From a virus, in the IMG/VR virus record IMGVR_UViG_3300036791_000688, positions 1 to 44,674 of that record: a stretch of DNA of 44,674 bases. One strand, given 5' to 3'. Numbering within the stretch: position 1 is the stretch's first letter; every line of letters starts with the position of its first letter. The translations under genes were made by a program, and so were the position numbers. The notes under the pieces are model-generated. The model worked only from the letters and a program-made list of their open reading frames with translations, did no database searches and was not told where the DNA came from. Positions 1 to 44,674 of this stretch are shown here, in pieces.

Positions 1-192
1 CGCGCATAACGGTCGAGCCGCATCTCTTCCGGCGGCACGCCCTCAATTCTGATCAGTGGCTTCTTCACCTCATACGCCATCACAACCCGATCGTAGATCG
101 CGATCGGCGGCATCTGAGGCGGCGGTGAAGCCCCTGGAGGCGGGCCGGGAGGCGGGGGCCCCATAGCCCCCATAGGCGGCCCCTGCGGCGGG
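1..192. repeat. Left copy of 192-bp terminal direct repeat (contig circularisation overlap)
   Basis: These bases repeat at 44483-44674. The only difference I find is A at 128 versus G at 44610. The repeat lies inside the portal reading frame, and the frame continues exactly across the joined ends, so this is most simply the overlap of a circular assembly rather than a physical end. On the minus strand the mismatch changes one codon in the Pro/Gly-rich portal segment: TCA (Ser) here, CCA (Pro) at the right end. Confidence 0.95.
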
Positions 193-1004
193 CCGGGAGG
201 CGGCGCCGCGCCGCCAGGAGGCGCTCCTGGCGGGCCCATCGGCGGCTGCGCGGTGGGAGGAGGCGCTCCGCCACCGAGAGGAGCTCCGCCCAGGCCGGGA
301 ATCGGGCCTGGCGGCGGCTGCATTTGAGGCGGAAGCGGCGGCGGAGGAATCGGCTTCCCGATCTCGACCAGTTTCGCGCTCGGGTCTTCGGTCAAAATCT
401 GCTGAATCTGTTGCGCGGTGATGTAGGTAAAAGTCTTGCGCCGAAACTCCTTGCGCGTATCCGTCCACCACTTGAGGAAACCGGTGCGAACGGTGAGCGC
501 GTCCTTGAACGCCCCGTAGAGCTTCAAGAATCCCTGATTGTCGTTCCAGAACGTGTAGTTGACGTAAGCCGTTGCTTGGCTCGCCATATCGCTCTCAGCC
601 GCGCTGCGCGGTACGAGCTCGACCGGAGATTCCGATGCGCCGAACAGCCGAATCAGACTCGGCAGCATCAGCATCACCGCATCGCGCACGTCGGTCGAAA
701 CAAACTTCGACCGGTTGACCGAATCTTGCGTGTCGCCCGAGACTTCCGCATAAGTCGCGTTGGGGTCTTGGACGATCGTCGTGTCGGAATACGGATTGTC
801 GTCGTTGCCGTCTATAGATGGGAGGAGGCCGTAATAGTACTTTTGAGCATAGTCCCTATCGCCGGCGAGTGTCGAGCCTTCGTAATCTCTTGAGTCAGCG
901 ATCAGCGCCTGAATATAATGATTATAGCTCTCTGGATCATCTGGATCGTAGACCCCGGTATTTGATCCTCCACTATCTTTGAAGCTCGCGAACAGCCTTT
1001 CCAT
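1..1004 (-). CDS. Portal protein, N-terminal part (gene continues at 44482 of the circle)
   Basis: Portals form the dodecameric DNA channel at one capsid vertex. This piece starts at ATG 1004 (GAGGAG lies about 14 nt upstream, inside the end of the HNH gene) and runs off the left edge. It joins in frame to 43003-44674, giving about 827 residues, longer than the roughly 725 of P22 portal. Typical portal features are visible: a segment with SKFVSTDVRDAVMLMLPSL, then QATAYVNYTFWNDNQGFLKL, then a kDaLxvRtGflKWW-like strand. Residues about 218-297 are an unusual Pro/Gly-rich insert. The call rests on family pattern, position between terminase and scaffold, and size. Confidence 0.88.
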   Translation of the reverse strand, partial: MERLFASFKDSGGSNTGVYDPDDPESYNHYIQALIADSRDYEGSTLAGDRDYAQKYYYGLLPSIDGNDDNPYSDTTIVQDPNATYAEVSGDTQDSVNRSKFVSTDVRDAVMLMLPSLIRLFGASESPVELVPRSAAESDMASQATAYVNYTFWNDNQGFLKLYGAFKDALTVRTGFLKWWTDTRKEFRRKTFTYITAQQIQQILTEDPSAKLVEIGKPIPPPPLPPQMQPPPGPIPGLGGAPLGGGAPPPTAQPPMGPPGAPPGGAAPPPGPPQGPPMGAMGPPPPGPPPGASPPPQMPPIAIYDRVVMAYEVKKPLIRIEGVPPEEMRLDRYA

Positions 1005-1009
1005 GACGA

Positions 1010-1483
1010 TTACTTGTGCTCCTCATACCATTTGAGGTTTCTTTCTTTTGCACAAGCGACACAAATCGTACTTTTAGTATAACGCGGAGAGTCGTGCCCA
1101 TTTTTGCATGTGGTTTCAAGAAAATAAATCTTTTCTCCCGCTATATACGCATCATAGCGCGCCCCTCGTCTCGCGTTTTTTGTCCTTATCCATAAAGGAA
1201 CATCCATCATATTTTCGCTGCGTGTTGCCCAGCGCAGGTGAGCGCCATTCACGCAAGATGGGCCAACGCATCCGCTAGGGGTTGCATGCGCCGCATCATG
1301 TTTTGAAGTTGGTGGAGGACCGTGTGTTTCCTCGCAGACTAAGCGGGAAACCTGAGCCGTCCTTCCGTCTTTTCTTCCACCTACGTGGACAACCGGACGC
1401 CCCTTATTGAAAGCGGCGGTCCAAATAAAACAACCTGTCGCCGTATCTGGCGTCCACTTATCGGAATGACGGTCGAGTATCAC
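1010..1483 (-). CDS. HNH endonuclease with C-terminal CxxC zinc ribbon
   Basis: A predicted free-standing HNH nuclease of 157 residues. The core shows a His followed by TPSGCVGPSC and then HLRWAT-SEN, the usual layout of phage HNH proteins in which Cys residues hold the fold and a His-Asn pair binds the metal. The last 40 residues carry CKNGH...CVACAKERN, a zinc-ribbon-like tail also found in other HNH genes of this genome. It begins with GTG and has no good Shine-Dalgarno site. It sits immediately upstream of the portal start (5-nt gap), and its sequence looks more AT-rich than its neighbours, as expected of a mobile insertion. No intron structure is evident around it. Confidence 0.75.
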   Translation of the reverse strand: MILDRHSDKWTPDTATGCFIWTAAFNKGRPVVHVGGRKDGRTAQVSRLVCEETHGPPPTSKHDAAHATPSGCVGPSCVNGAHLRWATRSENMMDVPLWIRTKNARRGARYDAYIAGEKIYFLETTCKNGHDSPRYTKSTICVACAKERNLKWYEEHK

Positions 1484-1742: not shown

Positions 1743-2468
1743 TTAGGGGGTTAAAGGAATCCGCGAATTGCGGCGCCAACCGATCCAACCAAGTATGCCG
1801 AACCCAAGCCCTATCATAACCCAAGTCGAGGGCTCGGGAATAATCCCGGCGCTCGTCATCGATTGATTGAACCCCGTGATCGAACCGCCGCTCACGAGAT
1901 TCAAGCTCGCGCCCTCCGTCATGCTGAAGGGAGCAAGCGCCGCGAACGCCGTCGTATGCGTGCCAGAAAAACTGTCGGGATTGGTCACCGGCACGCCAGT
2001 CACCGTGTCGAGAAGAACGCCAGGCGTATTCGCCGGATTCGCACCCTGAACGTTCGCCGGATCGGCCCAGAATTGCAACGTGCTCGCGGTCGAGCCCACC
2101 GCATCGTTGAAGGTCAAACTGGCCGACTCGTGAATCGCGGCGACCGGCGGAACGAAGTTCGTGTCGGACGCTATCAGCTTGATGGTGATCGAAGCGCCGC
2201 TCTCGTTGACGATGGATGAAGTCGACAACTGAAGCGAATCCGGCGCTCCGAAAGTGCTCTGAGTCAGCGCAATCTCGACGAACGCGCCGCCGACGCTGGT
2301 GTTGACCAGGAGGAGGTTGTTCGCTCCTCCAGATTGATCGCAACCAAGTTGTCCGTCGAAGCACGTAAACGTCGCTCCGTTGGCGCCGATCGAGATCTGC
2401 AAACGCGCGTCAGCTGGCGCCGCGCCCAACGCGGCGAATAGCGCCGCGCCCAAAATCCCCCGATTCAT
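1743..2468 (-). CDS. Secreted PEP-CTERM sorting-signal protein
   Basis: A 241-residue predicted exported protein. Residues 1-21 (MNRGILGAALFAALGAAPADA) are a signal peptide ending in an A-x-A-type site. The middle is a Thr/Ser/Ala/Asn-rich beta-type ectodomain with one close Cys pair (residues about 36-43). The C-terminus is a textbook PEP-CTERM tripartite signal: IPEPSTW at 210-216, a hydrophobic helix to about 231, then RRNSR. In bacteria such signals are processed by exosortase (EpsH/XrtA-type) and the proteins go to the exopolysaccharide-linked surface. ATG 2468 has a perfect AGGAGGT ribosome site. It lies in the late unit between a Pro-rich structural-type gene and an HNH gene. The surface-modifying role is inference. 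Confidence 0.85.
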   Translation of the reverse strand: MNRGILGAALFAALGAAPADARLQISIGANGATFTCFDGQLGCDQSGGANNLLLVNTSVGGAFVEIALTQSTFGAPDSLQLSTSSIVNESGASITIKLIASDTNFVPPVAAIHESASLTFNDAVGSTASTLQFWADPANVQGANPANTPGVLLDTVTGVPVTNPDSFSGTHTTAFAALAPFSMTEGASLNLVSGGSITGFNQSMTSAGIIPEPSTWVMIGLGFGILGWIGWRRNSRIPLTP

Positions 2469-2477
2469 CTTGACCTC

Positions 2478-2906
2478 CTATGCTGACGGCGTCGGAACCG
2501 GCGCCTCTGGCGTGATAATGCCAACCGTCACCCAACCCTGTTCTTGAGTCCAGCCCGACTTCCATTCAATCCGGCTCGTGTCCGTTGGCGGATCGACCGG
2601 CGGACTGTTCGGCGGGAAGTAGATCGGCGGCGTCGGGCGCGGATCGGTCGGGCCCCAGATTCCCGGCGGCTGGCCCCCGCCGCCCGGAGGCGGATAGTGG
2701 ATCGGCGGCATCACCCATGGCGGCAACGAACCGGGACCGCCAGAAATAACCGGCGGCTGACCGCCGCCGCCAGAGCCAGGAGGCATCGGCCCGCCGCCAA
2801 CGCCGATGCCAGTGTAGGTCGCCTCACCAATGAGAACCACTTGCTGCGACGTGCGAGCGAGCTTGTCGTACAAAACGCCAGTGATGGTGATCTCTGCTGC
2901 TGCCAT
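2478..2906 (-). CDS. Pro/Gly-rich late protein, unknown function
   Basis: A 142-residue protein. Residues 1-33 form a short beta-type region (ITITGVLYDKLARTSQQVVL). The centre is a long Pro/Gly-rich tract with PPW, PPIHYPPP and PPIYFPP repeats. The end (EWKSGWTQEQGWVTVGII) is folded-looking. ATG 2906 has a strong AGGAGGG ribosome site. It lies 9 nt upstream of the PEP-CTERM gene and is presumably co-transcribed. No catalytic motif is seen; a virion or decoration role is possible but not shown. Confidence 0.75.
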   Translation of the reverse strand: MAAAEITITGVLYDKLARTSQQVVLIGEATYTGIGVGGGPMPPGSGGGGQPPVISGGPGSLPPWVMPPIHYPPPGGGGQPPGIWGPTDPRPTPPIYFPPNSPPVDPPTDTSRIEWKSGWTQEQGWVTVGIITPEAPVPTPSA

Positions 2907-2915
2907 GCTTCCCTC

Positions 2916-3113
2916 CTACGAGCCTTTTGTGACGCCATCAGCAAGACGCGCGTCAACCGGCGTCAAATACGCGCCGCGCGTTTCGTCAATCAAACGCCGA
3001 ATGATGTCCGATACGGAAACGTTGCGTTGCTTGGAGATCTCGTTGAGCCATCCGATTTGGGCCTCAGAAAACTTGATCGTCACTTTGTGGACGGTGACGC
3101 CACGAGAGCTCAT
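2916..3113 (-). CDS. Ribbon-helix-helix DNA-binding protein
   Basis: A 65-residue protein with the Arc/MetJ-like pattern: a beta strand (VHKVTIKFSEAQIGWLNEI), a short turn, then a second helix with VSVSDIIRRLIDE. Such proteins bind operators as dimers. Its ATG overlaps the stop of the preceding HTH gene (ATGA at 3110-3113), so the two regulators are translationally coupled and probably act together on phage transcription. The target is unknown. Confidence 0.75.
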   Translation of the reverse strand: MSSRGVTVHKVTIKFSEAQIGWLNEISKQRNVSVSDIIRRLIDETRGAYLTPVDARLADGVTKGS

Positions 3114-3585: not shown

Positions 3586-4065
3586 ATGTCTAAGCTCATC
3601 GATATCACAGGGAAGAAATTCGGGCGATTGACCGCGCTCGAGGTCGACGGCGGCAATCTCCGCCACGGCCACACGCTAAGCTGCGGATGCTTGCAGCGTG
3701 AGAGGGCCGCTGCGGCAAGCCTCACGCACGGCCATGCTCGTAAGCGGACCTCCGCCTATCGCCGCTGGAAGCATGCCCGCGGGCGTTGTCTCAATCCAAC
3801 CGACGCCGCCTATCCCGAATATGGCGGACGCGGGATTCCCTTCAGCGCCATATGGGACGATTTCGCTGTATTCCTGGCGGAAATGGGCGAGCCGCCGCCA
3901 GGAACAACCTTAGACCGGATCGATAACGATCGGGGCTACGAACCAGGGAACTGCCGCTGGGCCTCGAGGAAGGAACAAGCGAACAACCGCCGACCTCGCC
4001 GCTGGGGCAAACGCCCGTCACACAAGGCCGCGGATGCGTCTCCGAAGTCGCCCACCAAAGCTTAG
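3586..4065 (+). CDS. HNH endonuclease, plus-strand insertion in the late unit
   Basis: 159 residues with the common phage HNH plan: GKKFGRLTALEV at the start, then SCGC, SAYRRWKHARGRCLNP, YPEYGGRGI, IWDDFAVFLAEMG, LDRIDNDRGYEPGNCRW and EQANNRR. The usual first Cys pair of the N-terminal zinc module is missing: only about seven residues separate FGRLTALEV from the GHTLSCGC part, so about 25 residues appear deleted. It is encoded against the surrounding late genes and overlaps the 3' end of terL by 48 nt, tail to tail. A GGAGAGG-like ribosome site precedes ATG 3586. Confidence 0.85.
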   Translation: MSKLIDITGKKFGRLTALEVDGGNLRHGHTLSCGCLQRERAAAASLTHGHARKRTSAYRRWKHARGRCLNPTDAAYPEYGGRGIPFSAIWDDFAVFLAEMGEPPPGTTLDRIDNDRGYEPGNCRWASRKEQANNRRPRRWGKRPSHKAADASPKSPTKA

Positions 4066-5349
4066 CGCCGAGGAAAGCGAAGTAACAAGGTTCAATCCAG
4101 TTGCGATCGTCTTCATAGCATCTGCGCCGTGTGACGCATCATCATGCACTGGAGTTCCGAATTTGCTTTTCTTGTAGCCTCTTAGCCTCGCCAATCCTCG
4201 TCTACACTTATGCTCGTCGAAAAAGGCGATGCCGAGAATCCCTCGCACCGCGGCTATCCCGTCTGGATCGCTAACACGAGGCGCGGTCAAGATGGGAACG
4301 TTGGTCGAATTCATCATAGTAATTCGCCGACTTTCGCCTGTTGTGAATTCACGAGCTTCAATGTCGTGGGGCAGGATGTGCGCTCTAAACGACGTTCCCC
4401 AGGATTTACCCTTTTTGTCGAGAAGATCTAAATAGTATTCAGCCTTCTTGCCACGGTCTTCTACATAATCTACGAAGTGAAGTTCTTTTCCTGCGATCTG
4501 AAATATCCAGATACAAGTAAAATCGTGGACTCCAACGTCCCAGCCGGTGATGAGCGGCTGGCTAAGATCGACAGGAACGCTAGTTATACGCTTCTGACTA
4601 GCGATGGCATTCATCGCATCTACGTAATACGCGCCCTCAACGGGAGCGTCGAAAGCGTTTTCCATTTCTCTGGCGAATTCGTCTGGCGGCATGTCGCGCG
4701 TAAGCTCCGCTTGCTCCTCAAGACTGAGGGCTGCGGTCCCAGTATTGCTTAACCGAATGTCGAATACATCCCAGGCCTCGTCGCCCTCCGCGCGCAGCTT
4801 CAAGGCATGGAAATGGTCGTCGCCATTGCTGGTGCCACTGATCACAGCGAATCCCCGATAATCAGCCAAGGTGGGGCGAACAACAGCCGTCCAAGCGCGA
4901 GGATTTAAAAGCGGATACTCATCCAAAATTGCCCCATCAAGATAGATGCCCCTAATTCTTTCGTAGGCTTGGCCGCCACCGTAGAGACGTATAGTAGCGC
5001 CAGTTGGGAATATCACGGTTAGTTCGCCTTCAAGAAAGCGAACACCTGGATAATTTCCCGCATAATGCTTCAAATAACCCCAACAAAGATCCTTGGCCTG
5101 TTCGAACGATGGGGCGAGATAAGCAAATCTAGGCGGTGGATGCTTGCGAGGGTTGGTCAAAGCAGCGCGAATCAATTGGTTTACAAGAGCTACAGTTTTT
5201 CCCGCTCGTCTGTGCGCTACAATAAACATCCATCTCTTGGTGGAAGCATGCAAAGCCCGAAAATGAGGCCGCGGTACATAGGGAATAACCGTCAAAGACT
5301 CAGCCGGCGCCGGCGCGTCCTCAAAATCGTAGTCAACCTCACTCGCCAT
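4018..5349 (-). CDS. terL: Terminase large subunit
   Basis: The ATP-driven DNA-packaging motor and nuclease. In 443 residues it shows Walker A AHRRAGKT (45-52), Walker B AILDEY (140-145), a coupling-motif region SGTSNGDD, and a C-terminal RNase H-type nuclease with WDVG (D271) and HDDASHGADAM (acidic residues 403/404 and 410). Length and motif order fit a full-length terL. It overlaps terS by 11 nt at its start, and the antisense HNH gene overlaps its last 48 nt. Confidence 0.96.
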   Translation of the reverse strand: MASEVDYDFEDAPAPAESLTVIPYVPRPHFRALHASTKRWMFIVAHRRAGKTVALVNQLIRAALTNPRKHPPPRFAYLAPSFEQAKDLCWGYLKHYAGNYPGVRFLEGELTVIFPTGATIRLYGGGQAYERIRGIYLDGAILDEYPLLNPRAWTAVVRPTLADYRGFAVISGTSNGDDHFHALKLRAEGDEAWDVFDIRLSNTGTAALSLEEQAELTRDMPPDEFAREMENAFDAPVEGAYYVDAMNAIASQKRITSVPVDLSQPLITGWDVGVHDFTCIWIFQIAGKELHFVDYVEDRGKKAEYYLDLLDKKGKSWGTSFRAHILPHDIEAREFTTGESRRITMMNSTNVPILTAPRVSDPDGIAAVRGILGIAFFDEHKCRRGLARLRGYKKSKFGTPVHDDASHGADAMKTIATGLNLVTSLSSALSFGGRLRRRIRGLV

Positions 5350-14309: not shown

Positions 14310-14521
14310 CCATGGTTTTACTCTGGGTCATCGCCTTCGGCGTTCTCTGGTGCGCCGGCTTTTTGATCGCACTCGTCTGGCAGAATCTCCGAATGATGGG
14401 CGCGGTGCGAATTCAGTTGCAAGGCTTAGCCGAGATTCACCGGCTTGGACTCGAAGTGTTGACGAGTCGTTGCGACCGGCTCGAAAAGCGGATCATAGAA
14501 GTCGAGGACATGGTACTGTGA
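14306..14521 (+). CDS. Single-span membrane protein with coiled-coil tail
   Basis: 71 residues. Residues 3-27 form a strong transmembrane helix (VLLWVIAFGVLWCAGFLIAL); the rest is an amphipathic coil (HRLGLEVLTSRCDRLEKRII). The start overlaps the previous stop (ATGA) and the end overlaps the next GTG (GTGA). This topology and the secreted protein that follows suggest a lysis or spanin-like pair, but no direct motif shows it. Confidence 0.6.
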   Translation: MTMVLLWVIAFGVLWCAGFLIALVWQNLRMMGAVRIQLQGLAEIHRLGLEVLTSRCDRLEKRIIEVEDMVL

Positions 14522-14871
14522 GCTTGCAGGGGCCAGCGCGACGGCGCTGTGTGCGGAGGGGCCGCTTTGTCGGTAGTGCCCACCTCCGCCGCCCCTGCAT
14601 CCTGATTTTGGCCGTTTTGGCGGCAAGTCCTGCTACTGCGAAATGCCGCCTATTTAGCCGCTGGTATTACCCTTGGCCGCAACACTGTGTGTCAGCTTCA
14701 CTCCAGCGTGTGTCAGCTTTCGCCCCGCTTCCACCAGAACGACAAGAACGGATCGAGATTCCCCTCCCCGCATTGGACGATATCATTTGGGGAGAGTCGG
14801 GTCCGGACACACTCCGCGGTCTTGCCCTTTTACGCAGCTTCATGGATGCTTCCCCGGCAAACCCGCGATAG
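14518..14871 (+). CDS. Probable exported small protein
   Basis: 117 residues from GTG 14518, which overlaps the upstream stop (GTGA). A basic N-terminus is followed by a hydrophobic stretch and cleavage-like end (CILILAVLAASPATAKC), then RLFSRWYYPWPQHC with a Cys pair, then a Pro-rich acidic tail. Likely exported to the periplasm. Its coupling to the membrane protein before it suggests they act together. An out-of-frame overlap upstream makes the start less certain. Confidence 0.5.
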   Translation: MSLQGPARRRCVRRGRFVGSAHLRRPCILILAVLAASPATAKCRLFSRWYYPWPQHCVSASLQRVSAFAPLPPERQERIEIPLPALDDIIWGESGPDTLRGLALLRSFMDASPANPR

Positions 14872-24572: not shown

Positions 24573-24782
24573 ATGCCCGATTTTACTGAGGCGGAATGCG
24601 ACGCGCTTCGCGCCACGATGGGACAGTCCAATCCGCTCTCAACCGCCATTTGGAAAATCATTCGGTGCTTACCGATAGGCGAGCGCTCTTTCCTTGGCGC
24701 AGACCTCGCCAATCTCGCAGTCGGCAGCAATCAATACGTGAAAAGGATCAGGCCTCATAAGGACAGAACCTATGGCCATTAA
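24573..24782 (+). CDS. Small protein, unknown
   Basis: 69 residues from ATG 24573, six nt after GGAG; an ATG at 24567 has no spacing from it. Mixed sequence MPDFTEAECDALRATMGQSN, then LSTAIWKIIRCLPIGERSFL, and a basic tail. It overlaps the ParB-like gene start. The terminator just upstream may limit its expression. Confidence 0.55.
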   Translation: MPDFTEAECDALRATMGQSNPLSTAIWKIIRCLPIGERSFLGADLANLAVGSNQYVKRIRPHKDRTYGH

Positions 24783-25698
24783 ACCGCATCCGGCCTGTGC
24801 CATCTGGCCGAAAATGACAGACGAGGAACTCGTCGCGCTCGCCGAGGACATCCGAGCCCGTGGACTCATTCACCCAGTAACGCTCTATGCGGGCGAAATG
24901 CTCGACGGCAAGAATCGGGAACGCGCATGCGAGATCGCCGGGGTTGAGTTGTGCACTGTCGTCTATGAGGGCGACGATCCAGTCGGCGAATCACTCAGTC
25001 TGAACAAGAACCGCCGCCATCTAACGAAGGCTGAGTTAGGGTTCATCGTATTAGAGCTAGCACCGCTGAAGCACGGTGGCGACCGTAAATCAGGATCAAG
25101 AGCCTCCGAAAAGACCTTGATCGAACTAGGCGCGCGAGTGGGCCTTGGACGGAGCAATATGCAATCGACTCTTACCGTGAAGAAACACGGCGAGCCGAAC
25201 GTAATCGAGATGGTGAAGACTGGAGAGGTTGGTGTCCAGGCCGCAGGGGCATTTGCACACAATACGCCGCGCGAGGGACAGCGCACCGCGACCGTCGAAA
25301 CCGTCAAACGCATCGGCGGCAAACTCAGGCATGGTCATCCCAAGACTATGGGCGATCGCGTGCGTGCGTACAATGAAGCGACGGGGTTTAAAATTATGAG
25401 TATTACAGTCCGCAAGGCCAAGCCGATCGGACGCATGCCAGACGACACGCGGCAGAAAATTGAGGGCCATATTGCCGAGATAAAAAACAGGCAGTTCAAG
25501 CTTGAGGTGTTGCTGGAATATGCGGATCAAATGAGCGAACCGCTGCGCCATGTGTTCGCGGACGAACTGCGAGATCTCCGAGGCAAATTCGACAAACTTG
25601 CACATATTGCCTTGGGCGGAAGCGATCTGCGCAAGATTGACCGCCCTTTGTGCCATGTCGAAATTCCGTTACGGAAGGACGACGAGCCTGCGGCCTGA
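24772..25698 (+). CDS. ParB-like DNA-binding protein
   Basis: 308 residues from ATG 24772 with AAGGA upstream. Residues 12-75 match the ParB/Srx N-terminal domain: LAEDIRARGLIHPVTLYAG, then EMLDGKNRERACEIAGVEL. Next comes LNKNRRHLTKAELGFIVLEL and an HTH-like KTLIELGARVGLGRSNMQST, as in ParB/Spo0J-type proteins. The C-terminal half is helical. ParB-fold proteins partition plasmids or regulate genes; no ParA is seen, so a partition role is unproven. Confidence 0.8.
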   Translation: MAIKPHPACAIWPKMTDEELVALAEDIRARGLIHPVTLYAGEMLDGKNRERACEIAGVELCTVVYEGDDPVGESLSLNKNRRHLTKAELGFIVLELAPLKHGGDRKSGSRASEKTLIELGARVGLGRSNMQSTLTVKKHGEPNVIEMVKTGEVGVQAAGAFAHNTPREGQRTATVETVKRIGGKLRHGHPKTMGDRVRAYNEATGFKIMSITVRKAKPIGRMPDDTRQKIEGHIAEIKNRQFKLEVLLEYADQMSEPLRHVFADELRDLRGKFDKLAHIALGGSDLRKIDRPLCHVEIPLRKDDEPAA

Positions 25699-42732: not shown

Positions 42733-43006
42733 TACGCTTATTCCTCAACGCAACCTTGTAATCGATGACGAAAGTCTTCAGCGAATTCGCCACTTCATCC
42801 AAAACCTGAAGCTTGTAAGTGAGGTTGTTCTTCGTCTCCCTGTCATTCGCGTCCATCAGGGCTTGAAACCAACGTTGGCGCACGGTGCGCACGCCGAGCA
42901 TGAACACGCCCTTCGGCTCAAGGAGGCTTCCCGCCTCTTCGCTACGCTCGCGCTTGATCGCCAGATCATCGGGCGCCGCGATCGGTTCTGCGACGTCGTC
43001 GCTCAC
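42725..43006 (-). CDS. Small protein between portal and scaffold
   Basis: 93 residues from GTG 43006, overlapping the portal stop (GTGA). Charged and helical (AIKRERSEEAGSLLEPKGVF, DANDRETKNNLTYKLQVLDE). No family recognised; proteins of this size often follow podovirus portals. Coupled to both neighbours. Confidence 0.6.
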   Translation of the reverse strand: MSDDVAEPIAAPDDLAIKRERSEEAGSLLEPKGVFMLGVRTVRQRWFQALMDANDRETKNNLTYKLQVLDEVANSLKTFVIDYKVALRNKRNG

Positions 43007-44674
43007 GCGCCGCCTCCCTGATCATCCGGCGCAGCCGCCTGCGTATCCGCGATCGCCTGGTCGCTCTCGTTCTGCATTTGCTGAGTGTGCACGTCGACCG
43101 CGCCGTCGTGCGCGGTCTTGAACATGTCCGCCGCCATCTGACCCAGCGTCGACACATGCTGGGCGTGAATCTTGTCGCGCTCGACGTCGAGCTTTTGCTG
43201 GTCATAGAGCGTCTTCTCGCGCAATTGCTGCAGCGCAAGCTCGTGCCGTTGATTCTGGTCCTGCTCCTTGAGTTGCTGATCGCCCAAGGCTTGCGCCGCG
43301 TCAGCCTTGACCTTCTGGTACTGCGCCTGCGCCGCCAGCGTCATCGCATCGGGCTCCTTCGGCGCGCTCAGCAATTGCTGCATCGCATTCGGATCCGGCA
43401 TCTTGAAATATCTCTGAACATTTTTGATGTTCGCTATCGCCAGCATGTCGGTTTGCGTATTCATCATCTCGGGCAGTCCGCAAACCGGATTCGCGAGGCC
43501 CATTTGCGCAACGATCGTTTGCTGATCATTCTTGATCTGCTGCAATGTCATCAGACGGACGGTGTCCGAACCTTTGCCGAGGGTTGGGTTGACCTCTACG
43601 CTCATGGAAGCGTCGAAGGTCGAGGTGTCATAATCGGTCCAACTGCCGTTGATCCGGAGAGTCCGTTGCTGCGCGGGATTCTCGACGACCTCGTTGAAGA
43701 GGCCAGCGAACAAGTCCTTAAAACCCGTCTCAGCAAGAACACGCGCCACAAGCTCCGTGCGCTCCTGGGCCCCGTTTATGACCGCTTCCACCCCAATCAT
43801 GGTGGAGCTCTGCAGGGCTTTCGGATCGAGGCCCTTTGCCGCGTCGCTCAGCCCTGTACGCCGCTGGAGCACGTCGTTGAGGAGCTCAATTATTGGTGTC
43901 ATCTCGGCGCCGAGAAATGGCGTCGACGTGTACATGACCGCCGACGAAGGATCGCCCCGCACGCGAATGACGGCGCCAAGCTCGTCATTCAAGGCATCGT
44001 CGACATTTACGTTAAGCTCATTGATCACCGTCTTGGGATTGATCGACTCCGCGGCTGAATCCAGCATCGCGCGGGTCAAATTCGTCTTGATCCGCTGAAT
44101 GTCCATCACGTAGTCAGCGATCGAATCGCCAACGATCGTGTGCGAAATCGGATCACACGAAAACAGCGCGAACTTGATCCGATTCGCTGGCTCGTCGCTG
44201 AAGATCGTGTGGTTCTCGCCCAGCGTGCAGATCTTGCGAAGCTCGGGGAAGCCGTCGCCGTCCTTGTCAACCTTGATGTACCACTCGCCATAATTGACCC
44301 CGTCGCCGACACGGGTCGACATGATCCGGCCAGGGTTCCTCAGTTGCGCTTCTTGAGTGAATTCCGGCGTCGACTGCGACTGCACGTAGTCGAGAAGGTC
44401 CTCGCGCGCGTAGCCCATCGCAATGAGCTCGTCGACCGGAACAATGCGTTCATGACCGACGATACGCGAATCCATGAATGTACGCGCATAACGGTCGAGC
44501 CGCATCTCTTCCGGCGGCACGCCCTCAATTCTGATCAGTGGCTTCTTCACCTCATACGCCATCACAACCCGATCGTAGATCGCGATCGGCGGCATCTGAG
44601 GCGGCGGTGGAGCCCCTGGAGGCGGGCCGGGAGGCGGGGGCCCCATAGCCCCCATAGGCGGCCCCTGCGGCGGG
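43003..44674 (-). CDS. Portal protein, C-terminal part (continues at 192 of the circle)
   Basis: In frame with the N-terminal piece at 1-1004; together about 827 residues. This part includes the Pro/Gly-rich insert end, then KKPLIRIEGVPPEEMRLDRY, FMDSRIVGHERIVPVDELIA, a helical wing/stem region (FDASMSVEVNPTLGKGSDTV), and a Gln-rich C-terminal barrel-like helix (QYQKVKADAAQALGDQQLKE). The end (AQHVSTLGQMAADMFKTAHD) is a long coil. Typical of P22-type portals. Confidence 0.88.
   Translation of the reverse strand, partial: PPQGPPMGAMGPPPPGPPPGAPPPPQMPPIAIYDRVVMAYEVKKPLIRIEGVPPEEMRLDRYARTFMDSRIVGHERIVPVDELIAMGYAREDLLDYVQSQSTPEFTQEAQLRNPGRIMSTRVGDGVNYGEWYIKVDKDGDGFPELRKICTLGENHTIFSDEPANRIKFALFSCDPISHTIVGDSIADYVMDIQRIKTNLTRAMLDSAAESINPKTVINELNVNVDDALNDELGAVIRVRGDPSSAVMYTSTPFLGAEMTPIIELLNDVLQRRTGLSDAAKGLDPKALQSSTMIGVEAVINGAQERTELVARVLAETGFKDLFAGLFNEVVENPAQQRTLRINGSWTDYDTSTFDASMSVEVNPTLGKGSDTVRLMTLQQIKNDQQTIVAQMGLANPVCGLPEMMNTQTDMLAIANIKNVQRYFKMPDPNAMQQLLSAPKEPDAMTLAAQAQYQKVKADAAQALGDQQLKEQDQNQRHELALQQLREKTLYDQQKLDVERDKIHAQHVSTLGQMAADMFKTAHDGAVDVHTQQMQNESDQAIADTQAAAPDDQGGGA
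44483..44674. repeat. Right copy of 192-bp terminal direct repeat
   Basis: Identical to 1-192 except G at 44610 (A at 128). Removing one copy gives a circle of about 44,482 bp in which the portal frame is continuous. The mismatch lies in a Pro/Gly-rich, low-complexity part of the portal and may record two variants in the sample. Confidence 0.95.

Follow-up and report, generated by a model that had tools for sequence, protein, structure and literature searches.

Why would a phage carry a gene whose product ends in the sorting tail of an exosortase substrate, and what could the phage gain from it? The question is raised by a viral sequence of 44,674 nucleotides (IMG/VR record IMGVR_UViG_3300036791_000688, positions 1 to 44,674, hereafter the window), in which an earlier note, made by a model from the letters alone, had proposed a phage-encoded PEP-CTERM protein at 1743-2468. 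PEP-CTERM proteins pass the inner membrane by the Sec route, wait there by their tails and, once exosortase has acted on them, take up their role at the cell surface or in the exopolysaccharide (EPS) (PMC1569441, PMC12188702, PMC9850573). In one study the loss of an exosortase changed the PEP-CTERM proteins of the exoproteome and impaired adhesion to polysaccharide (PMC12188702), and floc formation has been linked with the exosortase/PEP-CTERM system (PMC9850573). What is known of this system comes mostly from bioinformatics, with a few studies of flocs and biofilms, and most of its substrates have no known role.

The open reading frame was borne out at exactly 1743-2468, on the minus strand (the earlier note had given none), and encodes 241 amino acids from an ATG start. 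The minus-strand letters before this ATG, read directly in the sequence, are AGGAGGTCAAG, and the perfect AGGAGGT described in the earlier note is real. The gene and its signals are as follows:

1743 to 2468, minus strand: PEP-CTERM protein gene, defined by the open reading frame, PF07589 and TIGR02595, an AF2 model, 51 phage homologues and dN/dS
1770 to 1841, minus strand: PEP-CTERM sorting domain PEPSTWVMIGLGFGILGWIGWRR (DNA-level PF07589 search, 32.7 bits, E 5.6e-9)
2473 to 2479, minus strand: Shine-Dalgarno AGGAGGT, a few bases 5' of the ATG, read in the sequence

The protein is laid out as a signal peptide (about residues 1-21), a beta-sandwich ectodomain (about 22-207) and a PEP-CTERM sorting tail (210-235). 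Judged by eye and from the AF2 model (helix 4-14), the first residues, MNRGILGAALFAALGAAPADA, form a typical Sec signal that is cut at ADA, and the alanine of the cleavage motif is conserved in all members of both family alignments. The other elements listed in the earlier note are likewise all present: PEP occupies residues 211-213, a hydrophobic helix spans 213-234, and the basic residues WRRNSR follow it, with RR at the helix end. The profile search that the earlier note had proposed as a check gave matches over the cut-off with both models, PF07589 (28.5 bits against 20.7, residues 210-233) and TIGR02595 (21.0 bits against 16); in 14 control genomes PF07589 matched nothing. The window protein scores below the cut-off of a narrower model, PEPxxWA-CTERM NF035944 (19.2 bits against 35), which two proteins of sister phages reach (35.0 and 36.4 bits). 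Since the PEP-CTERM domain was matched in all 51 aligned homologues (E up to 0.1), which are 28-75% identical to the window protein, the tail lies far beyond what chance would give. Thus, the product is a PEP-CTERM protein.

Does the gene belong to the phage, or was it brought in with host DNA? The features that frame it are:

1 to 192, no strand: terminal direct repeat, equal to 44483-44674 at 191 of 192 positions (blastn of head against tail)
3 to 1004, minus strand: portal protein, N-terminal part (PF23899, E 5.5e-44), wrapping the contig ends to 44655-43003
1010 to 1483, minus strand: HNH endonuclease gene, downstream of the PEP-CTERM gene (phrog_826, E 6.8e-15)
2478 to 2906, minus strand: gene for a Pro/Gly-rich small protein, directly upstream of the PEP-CTERM gene; a phage gene that occurs also without PEP-CTERM genes
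2916 to 3113, minus strand: gene for a ribbon-helix-helix (RHH, CopG-like) protein (PF01402, just over the cut-off)
4018 to 5349, minus strand: terminase large subunit (TerL; phrog_2, E 3.4e-23), 49% identical to TerL of Ochrobactrum phage vB_OspP_OH

The two ends of the window overlap by 192 bases with one mismatch, which makes the window a closed phage genome, assembled as a circle; a circularity test that demands exact repeats could overlook an overlap of this kind. The portal gene spans the joint of the contig (3-1004 plus 43003-44655, minus strand), and the PEP-CTERM gene sits between terminase and portal, with the HNH and RHH genes nearby. Elsewhere the genome encodes a scaffold, a major head protein, an ejection protein, tail fibres, an endolysin, a primase and a helicase. 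Furthermore, relatives of the gene were found on 29 IMG/VR contigs at a first search and on 56 at a later one, the 56 coming from about 39 different IMG datasets as counted from their names. The gene belongs to the phage, and the host chimerism that the earlier note had named as a danger is effectively excluded by the closed genome and the nesting of the gene between terminase and portal.

That PEP-CTERM proteins are otherwise bacterial could still suggest an assembly chimera, or a recently captured host gene that has no function for the phage. Across 84,980 prokaryote species genomes a pattern-based scan found no close relatives of the ectodomain, and in 397 genomes of the Bradyrhizobium order and 376 at class level the profile matches were nearly all confined to the sorting tail. 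Weak ectodomain likeness was seen in two bacterial proteins (E 3.6e-5 and 0.007 over 4005 open reading frames); these remote matches hint at an ultimately cellular origin and are the further point in favour of capture. Set against it are the closed genome, the 56 phage contigs that carry the family, the lack of close ectodomain relatives in the bacterial genomes searched, the purifying selection described below and the replacement of the gene at the same site in a close relative of the phage, and we consider a chimera or an idle captured gene exceedingly improbable. No relatives of the protein were found in 50,697 isolate-phage records, in 72,556 plasmids or in PHROGs. The earlier note also knew of no described phage gene of this type; within our partial coverage of the literature, which leaves priority unproven, no title or abstract describes phage PEP-CTERM proteins. 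The gene is not unique, however, being one of several ectodomain families.

Comparison with related phages indicates how the gene came to occupy its site. In Ochrobactrum phage vB_OspP_OH, the closest phage in culture when TerL, head protein and helicase are compared, TerL abuts portal with no insert. The closest relative of the window phage, L031 (TerL 78%, portal 77% and RHH 57% identical), has a PEP-CTERM gene at the same site beside the conserved RHH gene, and that gene belongs to a different ectodomain family (family 1), its match to the window protein being limited to 25 amino acids of the tail. In other phages PEP-CTERM genes occur at several kinds of site. Some lie between terminase and portal, some follow the helicase where the early module ends, and others stand among further structural genes, near tail collar genes or beside an integrase. 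The last of these slots, in temperate relatives, holds family 0 (the family of the window protein) in five loci and family 2 in three. A tree built from 44 family 0 ectodomains shows at least 11 changes of site, and in three loci the PEP-CTERM gene lies on the strand opposite to the neighbouring portal and terminase genes. The gene is thus inserted between genes that are adjacent in phage OH, is exchanged for another PEP-CTERM gene in L031 and occurs at several sites, as is characteristic of a moron, and on this comparative evidence it is mobile accessory cargo and not a core virion gene.

A pattern scan of IMG/VR for PEP[ST]TWAM-like tails gave at least 120 stretches. Their ectodomains fall into groups that lack clear mutual similarity: family 0 with at least 68 genes (including, as clustered, some divergent members), family 1 with at least 26, family 2 with at least 14, and smaller ones; because some loci share one contig, these figures do not give the number of independent phages. 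Kinship between families 0, 1 and 2 is not claimed, as HHalign probabilities reached 66-68% at best. What goes beyond the earlier note is that many soil phages have cargo sites that are interchangeable and are taken by several apparently unrelated ectodomain families. Two different PEP-CTERM genes, mostly adjacent, occur together in seven loci. A tail ending WGA..R[RK].[VA]R recurs in proteins of different ectodomain families, and this shared ending suggests either tail recombination or a host-specific sorting signal.

The insert region between terminase and portal of the window contains two HNH endonuclease genes (1010-1483 and 3586-4065), which may be homing endonucleases that move or exchange the cargo; the cluster of the first is also found near PEP-CTERM genes in three further loci. 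The Pro/Gly-rich protein encoded at 2478-2906 has PPGIWGG/HPDQGLP-like repeats, ends in GW..VGI...PTPS in the closer relatives of the window, and is widespread and highly variable in these soil phages. It lay within two genes of a PEP-CTERM gene in 24 of 36 cases, but an independent search that started from this protein found a PEP-CTERM gene in the available flanks of only 4 of 35 loci; the enrichment was therefore rejected as sampling bias, and with it the idea of an obligate partner.

The position of the window gene amid head genes raises the possibility that its product decorates the virion and has nothing to do with exosortase, the PEP-CTERM-like tail having arisen by chance. Jelly-roll folds are common among phage structural proteins, and the weak structural matches of the ectodomain, given below, are of this kind. 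Against this, the protein has a Sec signal peptide, and 51 of 51 homologues match the PEP-CTERM domain; the same tail also stands on unrelated ectodomains, and the genome position is not conserved. Taken together, these points make virion decoration very improbable.

What, then, might the ectodomain do? The AF2 model (pLDDT 85) is a beta sandwich (strands within 24-207) set between two hydrophobic helices, one N-terminal (4-14) and one C-terminal (213-234); what separates the signal peptide from the tail is beta strands, with no transmembrane segment among them. Foldseek returned weak jelly-roll matches only, with TM scores (query length) of at most 0.31 in the PDB and 0.39 in BFVD among the matches listed; they include carbohydrate-binding modules, Eph domains and phage receptor-binding proteins. 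The modelled fold fits a binding domain and does not name its ligand, and the matches are a hint of a carbohydrate-binding role. With jelly-roll matches this weak, assignment of a function from the fold was dropped, and the model of the family 1 ectodomain (pLDDT 56.5) was too poor for use.

In a 25-member alignment P211, E212, W216 and G222 are invariant, together with many ectodomain residues, and dN/dS was 0.17 for the ectodomain, 0.39 for the signal peptide and 0.39 for the tail (a Nei-Gojobori script over 34 moderately close pairs, in which synonymous sites are fairly saturated and the values rough). Judged by these ratios, the ectodomain is under purifying selection. This bears on the possibility that the protein is a decoy, which would flood exosortase with substrate, leave host PEP-CTERM proteins unsorted and so weaken the exopolysaccharide layer, aiding adsorption, spread or release. 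The tail is indeed the one part common to unrelated phage ectodomain families, and the presence of two PEP-CTERM genes in some phages would also suit such a role. A pure decoy, however, needs no conserved folded ectodomain, and here it is the ectodomain that changes more slowly than the tail and has many invariant residues; we therefore regard a decoy as improbable.

The sites of the genes bear on another alternative, an accessory role in lysis or release, either as a membrane-anchored protein at the envelope late in infection or by loosening the EPS around the burst cell. In its favour, one group of sites is flanked by a tail collar gene on one side and, on the other, by an M15-peptidase-like gene (assigned by eye) and a small membrane protein, and the window gene is on the same strand as the head and packaging genes around it. 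Most sites, however, lie outside lysis cassettes, and Pfam and PEP-CTERM profile searches found no enzyme domain in the 241-residue protein, so that a part in lysis seems unlikely, to much the same degree as a decoy.

If the protein is sorted, whose exosortase would sort it? The earlier note had relied on that of the host, and the search supports it: no exosortase (PF09721) was found in the window or in 25 other virus records (0 of 26), and a host enzyme would therefore be needed. Among the matches listed, a close form of the signal, VPEPSTWAMM..GF, occurs in public genomes of Bradyrhizobium, other Hyphomicrobiales, sphingomonads and Phenylobacterium; the sole non-alphaproteobacterial record is labelled Frankia and is maybe mislabelled. 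The comparison with host genomes suggested in the earlier note came out in two ways: exosortase is present in 10 of 13 searchable bacterial genomes that bear the signal, but when 150 genomes were sampled across the Bradyrhizobium order, only 11 had it. The host is therefore probably an exosortase-bearing alphaproteobacterium. An attempt to identify it through prophage relatives in Hyphomicrobiales genomes (TerL at most 46%, integrase at most 40%) was not decisive, and the window contains no tRNA and hence no tRNA-based hint. Tails ending R[FLYS]A[VIFLS] made up 24 of 96 in phages and 0 of 167 in bacteria, the bacterial sample having been drawn by a stricter pattern; the contrast may mean that the true host lineage lies outside that sample.

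The explanation that we favour, and hold to be reasonably likely as a whole, is that the phage gene product is a substrate of the host exosortase that remodels the infected cell's surface. Following infection, or within the lysogen in the case of temperate relatives, the protein would be translated and exported by Sec, its C-terminal helix would hold it in the inner membrane, and the host exosortase would recognize the PEP tail and release or attach the beta-sandwich ectodomain at the outer surface or in the exopolysaccharide. That the phage protein is processed by a host exosortase is very probable. The benefit would be the remodelled surface itself, and a function in exclusion or in the EPS is proposed more tentatively: our first choice would be superinfection exclusion, which the earlier note had imagined, with the protein masking a receptor (polysaccharide or protein) or competing for it, and our second a changed adhesion or biofilm of the infected population. 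Replacement of the gene with the tag kept is what would be expected if the site of display stays fixed while the target changes.

The time at which the protein acts may differ between phages. For the copies beside an integrase, lysogenic conversion is plausible. A search of the window for tyrosine integrase (PF00589) gave no match, and the gene is packed within a minus-strand block that runs from terminase to portal; action in the lytic cycle would therefore be likelier in the window phage. No promoter or terminator clearly above chance was found at the gene in the window, so that, given the same-strand packing, a separately controlled lysogenic-conversion gene is unsupported there. A ParB-like protein (phrog_4715) is encoded at 24772-25698, although tyrosine integrase went undetected in this phage.

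Known systems offer several parallels. The bacterial substrates of exosortase (EpsH/XrtA; PF07589, TIGR02595; PMC1569441) have the same signal peptide, variable ectodomain, PEP, helix and basic tail, but they are encoded by chromosomal genes, whereas the window protein is phage-encoded interchangeable cargo, with no exosortase found in the same genome and an ectodomain family seen in cellular genomes only as weak remote matches. The alphaproteobacterial PEPxxWA-CTERM proteins (NF035944) of Bradyrhizobium, sphingomonads and Phenylobacterium share the PEPSTWAM..GF kind of signal, in place of which the window protein has PEPSTWVM; it scores below the cut-off of that model. Phage morons and the surface proteins of superinfection exclusion (lipoproteins such as Ltp or Llp, Cor) are a further parallel. 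The window gene resembles them in encoding a small exported accessory protein, in being inserted between core genes and swapped, and in lying beside the integrase in some temperate relatives; it differs in its predicted exosortase route, which replaces lipoprotein or outer-membrane sorting, and exclusion is in our case only proposed. CwpV of Clostridioides difficile is a cell-surface protein that gives antiphage protection (PMC4737114), and is thus an analogy, for possible function only, of a displayed protein able to change phage infection; it is chromosomal, Gram-positive and not exosortase-sorted, and no homology is claimed. Phage vB_OspP_OH (Wolominvirus, NC_070933) shares the genome plan of the window phage (TerL 49%, MCP 64-67%, helicase 43%) but has neither the PEP-CTERM gene nor any of the others that separate terminase from portal in the window. 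Finally, TIGR03118 proteins, which have a putative exosortase interaction domain, are reported from hot-spring virus contigs (PMC11003980). They are similar in having an exosortase-type C-terminal domain on viral contigs, but are a differently named family, given in the passage concerned as a horizontal-transfer statistic that is not accompanied there by an analysis of sorting; in the literature covered, this statistic is the nearest published precedent.

More generally, soil phages of alphaproteobacteria may share a niche for mobile cassettes, in which exosortase-sorted proteins with interchangeable ectodomains are displayed by way of the host exosortase, reshape the surface or EPS of infected cells, exclude rivals and diversify by gene replacement; we consider this broader picture evenly poised. 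Swapped, phage-borne substrates would show that the exosortase system controls something over which phages compete, most likely the outer surface or the EPS. They would be small and testable, and would make phage-encoded surface proteins of this kind a new class in soil bacteria. Furthermore, with the same tails on unrelated ectodomains it can be tested directly whether sorting depends on the tag and on nothing else. A small putative secreted protein with a Cys...WYYPWPQHC motif (cluster c7, 19 loci), which in the window is encoded at 14518-14871, is also found in many of these phages.
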